From: an uncultured Comamonas sp.
GTDB lineage: Bacteria; Pseudomonadota; Gammaproteobacteria; Burkholderiales; Burkholderiaceae_C
DNA length: 64,000 nucleotides
NCBI GenBank assembly: GCA_947306475.1
Contig: CAMZGS010000009.1
Coordinates: 1-64,000, forward strand
Direction: 5' to 3'
The notes below the pieces were generated by a model that saw nothing but the letters and a program-made list of their open reading frames with translations, was not told the origin of the DNA and did not search any database. Both the position numbers and the translations under genes were made by a program. Positions 8,062 to 64,000 of the stretch are shown piece after piece; position 1 is the first letter of the stretch; every line of letters starts with the position of its first letter.

Positions 8062-8076
8062 GGCTTAACAAAAGTG

Positions 8077-8152
8077 AGCGCCTGGCGCTGATAAATAAAG
8101 GGTTTGCGATAGTTTTCTATCGTAAATCCTTATAAATAAAGCGCTGACAGCT
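8077..8152 (+). repeat. rpoB-rpoC intergenic hairpin built from a dispersed-repeat copy plus a degenerate inverted partner
   Basis: Outer arms AGCGCCTGGCGCT/AGCGCTGACAGCT; inner stem AAGGGTTTGCGATAG-TTTT-CTATCGTAAATCCTT, 15 bp with G-U pairs; symmetric about 8114.5. Confidence 0.8.
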
Positions 8153-8175
8153 ATAGTTTTTGAGGAAAGAGTTAC

Positions 8176-12387
<4,212 letters not shown>

Positions 12388-60800: not shown

Positions 60801-62294
60801 ATGAGTACCGAAACCGAATCCATACAGCCACTTCCGCCGACAGCGGCCAGCACCGCGCGTGCGCCGCAACTGGAGACCCAGTCGCTGTTGCTGGCGCGCG
60901 TGGATCAGGCCTATCTGCGCCCGGCGCACCGGGTGGCAGCCAGCGCCAGCATTGTCGAGGTGGCACGTGTCTTCAAGACCCAGCGCACCACCAGCGTGCT
61001 GGTGGAAGGCATGGGCGCGCAGGACGGGGTGCAGGGGCTGGGCATCTTCACGGCCACCTCACTGCAGAACGCGGTCCTGGATGGCCGGCCTCTTGACACC
61101 CTGCCCGTGGGGGAGCTGGCCACCACGCCCGTGGTCACCATTGCCGCCAGTGCCACCATCGGCGATGCCATGGCCCTGCTGCTGCGCGAGCGTGTGCACC
61201 GCCTGGTGGTGGTGGACGAGCAGGGTGCCATCCTGGGCTTGCTGCGCGCCCTGGATCTGTTTGGCTTTGTGGCCAACCAGTCGCACCTGGTAGGGGTGCA
61301 GATCGAGCAGGCGCAGGACATTGCGGCCCTGGCACAGGCGGCGCAAAGCATCACGCCGCTGATTGCTGCGCTGCACCGTGGCGGCATGCGCATCGGCCTG
61401 ATGGCGCAGCTGGTGCAGCAGCTCAACACCCGTCTGTTCGAGCGCGCCTGGCACATGGTGGCGCCGCAGGAGTTGCTGGACAACAGCTGCCTGTTCGTCA
61501 TGGGCAGCGAGGGGCGCGGCGAGCAGCTGCTCAAGACCGATCAGGACAACGGCCTGCTGCTGCGCGATGGCTACACCCCGCCGGATGACCTGGCGCAGAT
61601 CTGCCAGCGGTTTTCCGACGTGCTGCACGATTTTGGCTACCCGCCCTGCCCGGGCGGTGTCATGCTCAGCAACCCGGCCTGGCGTGGCAGCGTGGCCGAA
61701 TTCAGCCAGCGCGCGCGCCGTTGGTTGCTGATGCCGCAGGACGACAGCCTGATGCAGCTGGCCATCTTCATCGACGCTCATGCCGTGGCGGGCGACGCCA
61801 GCCTGCTGGCGCAGGTGCGCACCAATCTGCGCGAGGTCACCATCGACAGCGACGTGCAGCTGGCACGTTTTGCCGCACCGGTGCTGGCCTTCGAGAGCAG
61901 CCCCGCCTGGTGGCAGCGCCTGCTGGGGCGTGCGCAGGAGGCGCCGGTGCACGTGAAGAAGGCCGGGCTGTTTCCCATCGTGCATGGCGTGCGCAGTCTG
62001 GCGCTGGCGCATGGCGTGCATGCAGCCAGCACCACCGAGCGCCTGCGCGCTCTGGCGCAGGAGCAGGTGCTGGACGCCGATCTGGCCCAGGCCCTGGAAG
62101 AAAGCCTGCACTTCTTCATGGAGCTGCGCCTGCAGGCGGGGCTGCGTGAGCTGGAGCAGGGCCAGCCCGTCACCGGGCAGGTGGACATGGCAGGCCTGAG
62201 CAGCCTGGAGCGCCAGCTGCTGCACGACACACTGGCCGTGGTGCAGCGCTTCAAGGCCGTGCTGCAGCAGCGCCTGCGGCTGAACGCCGTTTAG
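60801..62294 (+). CDS. CBS-domain DUF294/DUF335 putative nucleotidyltransferase
   Basis: Tandem CBS-like region, then CLFVMGSEGRGEQLLKTDQDNGLLLRDGY nucleotidyltransferase motif. Confidence 0.9.
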   Translation: MSTETESIQPLPPTAASTARAPQLETQSLLLARVDQAYLRPAHRVAASASIVEVARVFKTQRTTSVLVEGMGAQDGVQGLGIFTATSLQNAVLDGRPLDTLPVGELATTPVVTIAASATIGDAMALLLRERVHRLVVVDEQGAILGLLRALDLFGFVANQSHLVGVQIEQAQDIAALAQAAQSITPLIAALHRGGMRIGLMAQLVQQLNTRLFERAWHMVAPQELLDNSCLFVMGSEGRGEQLLKTDQDNGLLLRDGYTPPDDLAQICQRFSDVLHDFGYPPCPGGVMLSNPAWRGSVAEFSQRARRWLLMPQDDSLMQLAIFIDAHAVAGDASLLAQVRTNLREVTIDSDVQLARFAAPVLAFESSPAWWQRLLGRAQEAPVHVKKAGLFPIVHGVRSLALAHGVHAASTTERLRALAQEQVLDADLAQALEESLHFFMELRLQAGLRELEQGQPVTGQVDMAGLSSLERQLLHDTLAVVQRFKAVLQQRLRLNAV

Positions 62295-62412: not shown

Positions 62413-64000
62413 ATGCAGAAGAAATCAGGATGGATGTTGGCCGTCGCAGTGCTTTTTGGGGGCACGGGCGTTGCGCTGGCTCTGCTGTGGGGGCTGTCGT
62501 GGCTGGTGCTGGCGGCCGAGCAGCGCGCGCAGTGGGCGCAGGCCTGGGCCCAGGTGGCACCGCTGTGGTGGCTGGTCTGGGCCGTCGGTGGAGGGGCCCT
62601 GCTGTGGTGCTGGCGGCGCTGGGTATGGCAGCCGCGCCAGGCACTGGCCCGTCTGGCCGAGCAAGGGCGTGTGCTGCTGACGCTGCACGATGCGCCGCCC
62701 CTGGCGCCGCAGCCCGGCCAGATCCAGCCCCTGGCGGAAGTGCTGCAGACGCTGGTGGAGCAGCGCGATGGCCTGCGCCGCGACATGAAGGAAGAAGTGC
62801 GCCGCGCCAGCGGTCGCATGCAGCAGGAAAAAGACCATCTGGCCGCCCTGCTGGCCGAGCTGCAACAGGCCGTGCTGGTGTGCAACCTGGAGGGGCGCAT
62901 CCTGCTGTGCAACCACCTGGCGCGCCAGCAGTGGGGTGCAGGGGCAGTGGGCATTGGCCGCTCGGTGTACGGGTTGCTCGACCGTGCCGTGCTGCTGCAC
63001 GCCCTGCAGGGCATGCAGCAGCGGCTGGAGCGCGCAGCGGTGTATCCGGGGCGGCAATTTGTCACGCACACGCAGGACGGCCACCTGCTGCGCGTGCAGA
63101 TGACGCCGGTGCTGGCGGGCGAGGCCCGGCAGGCCGCTGCGGGAGCACAGCCGGCCGCCATGCCGGAGCTGACCGGCTTCATGCTGCTGCTGGAGGATGT
63201 GACGCACAGCTTTGCCGAAGAGCAGGCGCGTGACAACATGCTGCACAGCATGACCGAGGGCAATCGCGCCAGCCTGGGGGCGCTGCGTGCCGCGCTGGCC
63301 GCGCTGGACCCGCGCAAGGCCCGGCAGCCCGACGTGGCCGACGGGCAGGAGCAGCTTCCGGCCACGCCGATCAGCGCTGTGCAGGAGCGCCTGTGGCAGG
63401 TGGTGCACACCGAGCTGGAGCGTGTGAGCGGGCGCATCGAGGCGCTGGCCCAGCGCATTGCTGCCGACGTGCGCACCCGCTGGCCGCTGGAGAGCATGCT
63501 GGGTCAGGAGCTGCTGGCGGCTGTGCAGCAGCACATGCAGGAGCAGCTGACGCGGCCAGTGACGGCAGACGAGGCGGAAGACGATCTGTGGCTGCGCGTG
63601 GACAGCTATTCCCTGTTGCAGGCGCTGACCTACCTGGGAGAGCGCTTGATCAGCGAATTTGCCGTGCGCAGCCTGCGTCTGCGCCTGCAGCGTGGCGATG
63701 AGCGCTACGCGTATCTGGACCTGGTGTGGGTGGGTCATGCCATGAGCACCGAGACCGTGATGAGCTGGGAGATGGACCCCATGCAGCTGGGGGCCGAGCG
63801 CAGCACCCTGAGCGTGCGCGATGTGGTGCAGCGCCACGGTGGCTCCATGGGGTTTGAGCGCGAGCGCGCCAGCCACCAGGCGTATTTCCGCTTTCAGCTG
63901 CCCCTGGGGGCCGGTCAGTCCACGACGGCAGCACAGGCGCCCGCGCTGCCGCATGTCAGCAGCCGTCCGGAGTTCTACGACTTCGACCTGTTCCAGTACC
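62413..64000 (+). CDS. Membrane PAS-like / degenerate histidine-kinase-like protein, 3' truncated by window (possible exonuclease fusion downstream)
   Basis: Open frame from ATG 62413 to window end: MQKKSGWMLAVAVLFGGTGVALALLWGLSWLVLAAEQ...RHGGSMGFERERASHQAYFRFQLPL...RPEFYDFDLFQY. Confidence 0.78.
   Translation, partial: MQKKSGWMLAVAVLFGGTGVALALLWGLSWLVLAAEQRAQWAQAWAQVAPLWWLVWAVGGGALLWCWRRWVWQPRQALARLAEQGRVLLTLHDAPPLAPQPGQIQPLAEVLQTLVEQRDGLRRDMKEEVRRASGRMQQEKDHLAALLAELQQAVLVCNLEGRILLCNHLARQQWGAGAVGIGRSVYGLLDRAVLLHALQGMQQRLERAAVYPGRQFVTHTQDGHLLRVQMTPVLAGEARQAAAGAQPAAMPELTGFMLLLEDVTHSFAEEQARDNMLHSMTEGNRASLGALRAALAALDPRKARQPDVADGQEQLPATPISAVQERLWQVVHTELERVSGRIEALAQRIAADVRTRWPLESMLGQELLAAVQQHMQEQLTRPVTADEAEDDLWLRVDSYSLLQALTYLGERLISEFAVRSLRLRLQRGDERYAYLDLVWVGHAMSTETVMSWEMDPMQLGAERSTLSVRDVVQRHGGSMGFERERASHQAYFRFQLPLGAGQSTTAAQAPALPHVSSRPEFYDFDLFQY

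Follow-up and report, generated by a model that had tools for sequence, protein, structure and literature searches.

A candidate two-component effector: a membrane-anchored pseudokinase-exonuclease fusion in Comamonas and its relatives

The window analysed here comprises positions 1-64000 of a 152,769-base contig from an uncultured Comamonas sp., and it ends inside a gene whose product combines two transmembrane helices, a PAS domain, a pseudo-histidine-kinase and a DEDDh (DnaQ-type) exonuclease, in that order. Homologues of this fusion usually lie directly behind the genes for an SLC5-type sensor kinase (SLC5-HK) and a single-domain receiver (REC). The explanation that we consider best, at a probability of roughly 0.5, is that the fusion is a membrane-anchored effector of a two-component pathway, in which the phosphorylated receiver would dock on the pseudo-DHp and gate the exonuclease. 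The architecture of the fusion, its pseudokinase status and the gene order around it are well supported.

Architecture of the fusion protein

A single open frame runs from an ATG at position 62413, preceded by a good ribosome-binding site (AAGGAG), to the end of the window and closes at contig position 64623, giving a product of 736 aa (Table 1); the exonuclease end was read from the contig past the window. The two N-terminal membrane segments of the original prediction were recovered as hydrophobic helices both in the sequence and in the structural model. The PAS-like region proposed behind them is weak in the window protein alone (PF00989, E = 0.013-0.03, under the Pfam cut-off) and clear at the level of the family, with PAS_4 matches in 35 of the 54 sequences and E-values down to 7e-9 for PAS models. 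In the homologue alignment, the PAS core belongs to the best-conserved parts of the fusion.

Table 1. Features of the fusion gene and its upstream neighbour (window coordinates)
Feature	Position	Strand	Basis
DUF294a, CBS-DUF294-DUF294_C putative nucleotidyltransferase	60801..62294	+	Pfam; motif
Fusion, window part (aa 1-529 of 736)	62413..64000	+	Frame, translation, Pfam
Two TM helices (~aa 7-32 and ~47-70) with a short loop between	62431..62622	+	Hydrophobicity of sequence, model helices
PAS domain (~aa 142-262)	62836..63198	+	Family-level Pfam matches, model
Pseudo-DHp (~aa 264-352), TEGxRASL replacing the H-box, Glu at the phospho-His position	63202..63468	+	Alignment, PDB profile matches
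Pseudo-CA, ATPase-like (~aa 356-500), lacking N-box, G1 and G2, RHGG...FRFQLPL kept	63478..63912	+	Alignment, profile, fold
Linker motif SRPEFYDFDLF between pseudokinase and exonuclease	63961..63993	+	Near-invariant in homologue alignment

Pfam searches with the window sequence alone returned almost nothing in the kinase-like middle of the protein, and HisKA was weakly matched in 12 of the 54 family members. A 54-sequence profile of this region, on the other hand, retrieved solved sensor kinases (VicK 4i5s, E = 2.3e-15), and the predicted structure (mean pLDDT 89) matched WalK/VicK and LOV-kinase chimeras in Foldseek at 1e-15 to 1e-17, with individual matches at 2e-17 and 1.9e-15. These results show that the region, as modelled, is a genuine PAS-DHp-CA fold, in agreement with the kinase-like reading made from the window alone. 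An active histidine kinase, with HisKA and HATPase_c domains, the H-box His, the N-box Asn and the G1 and G2 boxes, it is not: none of 106 homologues from beta-, gamma- and deltaproteobacteria has an H-box, N-box or G2 box, and one has DxGxG, as a chance match. The pseudo-DHp reads T-E-G-S-R-A-S-L where the usual H-box has T-H-E-L-R-T-P-L, and the position of the phospho-accepting His is occupied by Glu (or Asp) in about nine of ten sequences. The original prediction of a degenerate kinase therefore stands, as the window protein has no H-box, N-box, DxGxG or G2 and keeps the RHGG...FRFxLPL end, and the intact H-box and N/G boxes that it had named as contrary evidence are absent from the homologues. 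Because the catalytic boxes are missing from all 106 of them, the pseudokinase is ancestral, and recent decay of a real kinase was rejected.

Past position 64000 the frame enters an RNase_T domain (PF00929, E = 1.3e-35, aa 548-703 of the fusion), with the motifs DTETTG at aa 550, HNAAFD at aa 633 and RHTALGDA at aa 690. The fusion to a DnaQ-type exonuclease, which had been guessed from the truncated frame together with the first two of these motifs, was thus confirmed at the level of the superfamily. Catalytic residues D550, E552, D638 and H691 are present in 106 of 106 homologues and D696 in 105, and a fold search of the domain matched the PolC, E. coli epsilon and ExoX exonucleases, so that the DEDDh 3'-5' exonuclease of the fusion is, judged by its residues, intact. 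The domain scored under the cut-offs of both the DnaQ equivalog TIGR01406 (125.3 versus 222.7 bits) and the stand-alone exonuclease PRK09145 (NF006601; 76.6 versus 189 bits).

Distribution, gene order and the partner kinase

The distribution of the fusion is patchy but broad. Among the genomes sampled, it was present in 6 of 41 species within the genus, in 32 of 121 genera within the family when partial matches were counted, and in 17 of 212 genera across the phylum. The closest named relatives are from Comamonas, and other named homologues come from Hydrogenophaga, Thauera, Accumulibacter, Colwellia, Wenzhouxiangella, a Pseudomonas and Desulfuromonadales. Assemblies of the six Comamonas species with the fusion measure 2.3-3.2 Mb, and those of most species without it 4-6 Mb. 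In Rubrivivax rivuli and Piscinibacter aquaticus (L118 and L124) the fusion appears split over several frames, as do DUF294a and ActP in L124, suggesting frameshifts or sequencing errors.

When the genes of 80 named loci were clustered, a recurring array was found, in which an SLC5-type kinase is followed by a single-domain REC, the fusion, DUF294, DUF4212 and a VC_2705 symporter, with acs nearby. Among the 59 loci with at least 4 kb of upstream sequence, REC lies directly upstream of the fusion in 42, and kinase and REC are found together upstream in 39. DUF294 and a VC_2705/ActP-type symporter follow often, though not always: DUF294 is adjacent downstream in 30/61 loci, and a symporter lies within 10 kb of the fusion in 28/39 and acs in 16/39. 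In four loci (L069, L073, L081 and L104) the fusion is followed by two DUF294 frames in tandem, which means that DUF294 has in some cases been duplicated or split. Neither kinase nor REC is adjacent in 17 of the 59 loci, the window species and several others among them, and REC is therefore not essential everywhere.

This association was also seen genome-wide in the sample of 121 family genera, which is independent of the named loci. There, 27 of 28 SLC5-HK (Fisher p = 8e-21) and 25 of 25 REC (p = 6e-20) fell in fusion-bearing genomes, p-values that overstate independence since the genomes are related. REC lies about 50 bp upstream of the fusion, with a gap of 29-170 bp in the 22 cases that have both together on one contig. 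In one further genome (G058; C1:2744864-2745355, L050) a run of N breaks the fusion, and 1.8 Mb separate it from the HK-REC pair on the same scaffold, possibly through a scaffolding error.

The N-terminal half of the partner kinase matches the solved kinase chain 10ed_A (E = 8e-78, aa 4-470), which we take to be the CbrA transceptor chain, and its core matches HisKA (E = 2e-19) and HATPase_c (E = 4e-27), with an H-box in 40 of 41 sequences. Although the Pfam SSF model did not reach 0.01 on the divergent SLC5 half, that half and the active core together place the partner among the SLC5/STAC sensor kinases. The partner REC is a single domain of about 124 aa with no output domain, in which the phosphorylation residues D10, D53, T/S83 and K105 are conserved.

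The pseudo-DHp resembles the DHp of these partner kinases specifically. Its profile scored partner-kinase DHps at a median of 37.7 bits (25-46), versus at most 23.6 bits for non-partner kinases from the same organisms or their relatives, and three partner kinases concealed in the background set were ranked as the top three. A chance or generic HisKA likeness was rejected, as the background kinase with the top HisKA score (L147, 88 bits) reached only 4.3 bits against the pseudo-DHp profile. In an unrooted tree the pseudokinases join among the partner kinases on a long branch, and the background kinases stand apart with support of 96/95. These comparisons are most simply read as descent of the pseudokinase from the partner kinase, whose receiver-docking surface it may have kept. 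Comparing paired with mismatched kinase and pseudokinase DHps residue by residue revealed no clear coevolution beyond the shared consensus, and this comparison therefore lends no independent support to the docking that we infer.

The locus in Comamonas

Upstream of the fusion in the window lies DUF294a, in which the nucleotidyltransferase motif is intact (GSEGRGEQ...DQD for GSxGRxE...DxD). The original prediction had called this neighbour a GlnD-like nucleotidyltransferase; its Pfam matches are CBS, DUF294 and DUF294_C only, which makes it a member of the DUF294 family and not GlnD itself. The proposed pairing of DUF294a with the fusion did not survive the neighbourhood analysis, in which the conserved upstream partners are SLC5-HK and REC, and we regard it as secondary. 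In sister Comamonas L052 and L009 a stand-alone exonuclease intervenes between the two genes, and in sister G011 kinase and REC precede the fusion. Just before the fusion in L052, a cNMP-CBS-DUF294 gene (8073-9893) that still has the N-terminal cNMP-binding domain absent from the window DUF294a overlaps a PRK09145 stand-alone exonuclease (9893-10543), which scores 285.5 bits versus the NF006601 cut-off of 189. A stand-alone exonuclease precedes the fusion in three sister Comamonas without HK/REC as well as in L052. The window locus has lost the cNMP domain and the stand-alone exonuclease, and it is because both are missing there that DUF294a adjoins the fusion.

In G011, the one sister species with SLC5-HK and REC directly upstream of the fusion, the kinase is 57% identical to that of L063 and the REC 62% identical to that of L090. 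The window genome and four sister Comamonas have kept the fusion and have no close SLC5-HK or REC genome-wide. Relocation within the window genome, which is 99.9% complete, was considered and rejected; among the matches listed, no SLC5-HK is full-length and no REC exceeds about 40% identity. By this comparison of gene content, kinase and receiver have both been lost in the lineage of the window, and the fusion there would have to rely on PAS or membrane input or on another receiver.

Downstream, a second CBS-CBS-DUF294 gene (L006 4718-6232; contig ~64717-66231) lies on the minus strand, convergent with the fusion, and beyond it are DUF4212 (called by eye from its translation), VC_2705 symporter and ActP genes. 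A convergent DUF294 recurs in Burkholderiales loci L053, L055, L056, L062, L065, L075, L080, L097, L102 and L105.

Proposed mechanism, alternatives and known systems

A nuclease may plausibly be the output of a signalling module. In the reading that we favour, the SLC5 kinase would sense acetate, pyruvate or a related carboxylate and phosphorylate the receiver, which would dock on the pseudo-DHp helices that resemble the kinase's own DHp. Docking and PAS input would then rearrange the coiled-coil dimer and switch the C-terminal exonuclease on or off. The substrate would most likely be RNA or the 3' ends of nucleic acid, in which case the output would be a post-transcriptional adjustment of carbon use, and the exonuclease may also counteract the nearby DUF294 nucleotidyltransferase. 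More tentatively, we propose a widespread, undescribed route for fast post-transcriptional control of carboxylate use, in which a transporter-type kinase would signal through a stand-alone receiver to a degenerate kinase serving as docking platform and gating a membrane-tethered exonuclease.

Several observations weigh against a docking effector. Common descent through duplication, and not a retained ability to bind REC, could explain why pseudo-DHp and partner DHp are alike, and the H-box neighbours that normally contact REC have changed from HELRTP to EGSRAS. The 17/59 loci that lack adjacent kinase and REC also count against it, and would fit a somewhat unlikely alternative in which a signal from the membrane or a metabolite is sensed by the PAS domain and membrane helices, which exert direct control over the exonuclease, the pseudokinase being only a dimerising or nucleotide-sensing spacer while SLC5-HK and REC act elsewhere. 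Retention of the fusion in the window genome and four sister Comamonas and the strong conservation of the PAS core agree with such a receiver-independent sensor; the genome-wide co-occurrence and close spacing with REC in other lineages do not, nor does the specific likeness of the pseudo-DHp to the partner DHp. That likeness, by profile and tree, would also suit a phosphorylation sink or adaptor, in which the pseudo-DHp would bind and sequester REC, or form a heterodimer with the SLC5 kinase, and the membrane-tethered exonuclease would work constitutively as an activity apart. NifL and DivL, unusual proteins of this fold that are both among the fold matches, do act by binding partners, but the strict conservation of the fused exonuclease and linker argues for coupling, and we consider a sink or adaptor improbable.

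Pairing of the exonuclease with DUF294, such that DUF294 adds nucleotides to an RNA 3' end or to a protein and the exonuclease removes them, is compatible with a docking effector, and both can hold; we judge it unlikely. It draws on the DUF294 genes adjacent to the fusion, downstream in the loci counted above and upstream in the Comamonas group, on the intact motif of DUF294a and on the PP_0354/PP_0353 operon of P. putida. However, many loci have no DUF294 nearby, the exonuclease found with cNMP-CBS-DUF294 in sister Comamonas is of another family (PRK09145), and no demonstration of DUF294 activity was found in the literature searched.

The two-component outputs characterised so far are mostly DNA binding, turnover of cyclic dinucleotides or motility. 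If the favoured mechanism is true, control of a nuclease by a receiver through a pseudokinase would add a new output logic to these, and the position of the relatives behind an acetate/carboxylate-type kinase suggests an undescribed pathway that would lead from the sensing of nutrients to the trimming of nucleic acids. A literature search that covered few subscription papers found no description of the fused protein or of the kinase-REC-exonuclease order. These proposals lend themselves to direct testing, since the operons are compact and are found in Betaproteobacteria that can be cultured.

Among known systems, the use of acetate and pyruvate is under the control of the SLC5/STAC kinases CrbS (MxtR) and RpuS (PMC5715377, PMC9100948). 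The partner kinase shares with CrbS/CrbR (MxtR/ErdR), CbrA/CbrB and RpuS/RpuR an SLC5-like half joined to an active HisKA-HATPase core and a setting among acetate/carboxylate transport genes. Unlike these systems, whose regulators activate transcription, the kinase here is followed by a single-domain REC and then by the pseudokinase-exonuclease. The nearest system that has been studied is the P. putida operon PP_0354 (CBS)-PP_0353 (RNase_T family), which is targeted by MxtR/ErdR; growth on pyruvate is impaired in mutants of mxtR, erdR and PP_0353 alike, and cells without PP_0353 grow more slowly on pyruvate but not on acetate (PMC9927547); PA3232-PA3235 are up about 16-fold on propionate (PMC9765439). 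PP_0354-PP_0353 and PA3233-PA3232 resemble the present loci in combining a CBS protein with an RNase_T-family nuclease, as a target of an SLC5-type two-component system linked to pyruvate or acetate. PMC9927547 mentions no TM-PAS-pseudokinase part fused to PP_0353, and the parallel, which bears on our preferred mechanism by analogy, is tempered by the normal growth of the PP_0353 mutant on acetate. If true, the mechanism might explain why an RNase_T protein such as PP_0353, for which no mechanism is known, belongs to an acetate/pyruvate regulon.

For the pseudokinase, the closest full PAS-DHp-CA fold is that of WalK/VicK (YycG), 4i5s by profile and 9a5d by fold, from which the fusion differs in lacking the catalytic residues and in carrying an additional exonuclease domain. 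NifL and DivL have the histidine-kinase fold and act without ordinary histidine phosphotransfer. Both NifL-NifA (9qq6) and DivL (4q20) matched the pseudokinase fold, but neither carries a fused nuclease and their motifs differ from those of the pseudokinase. The exonuclease domain shares the intact DEDDh residues of DnaQ/PolC-type enzymes and is 43-44% identical to the PolC exonuclease 2p1j in the fold match, whereas, unlike them, it is predicted to be membrane-anchored and fused to a signalling module, and it scores under the dnaQ and PolC equivalog cut-offs. It likewise falls outside PRK09145, whose stand-alone members coexist with the fusion in sister Comamonas.
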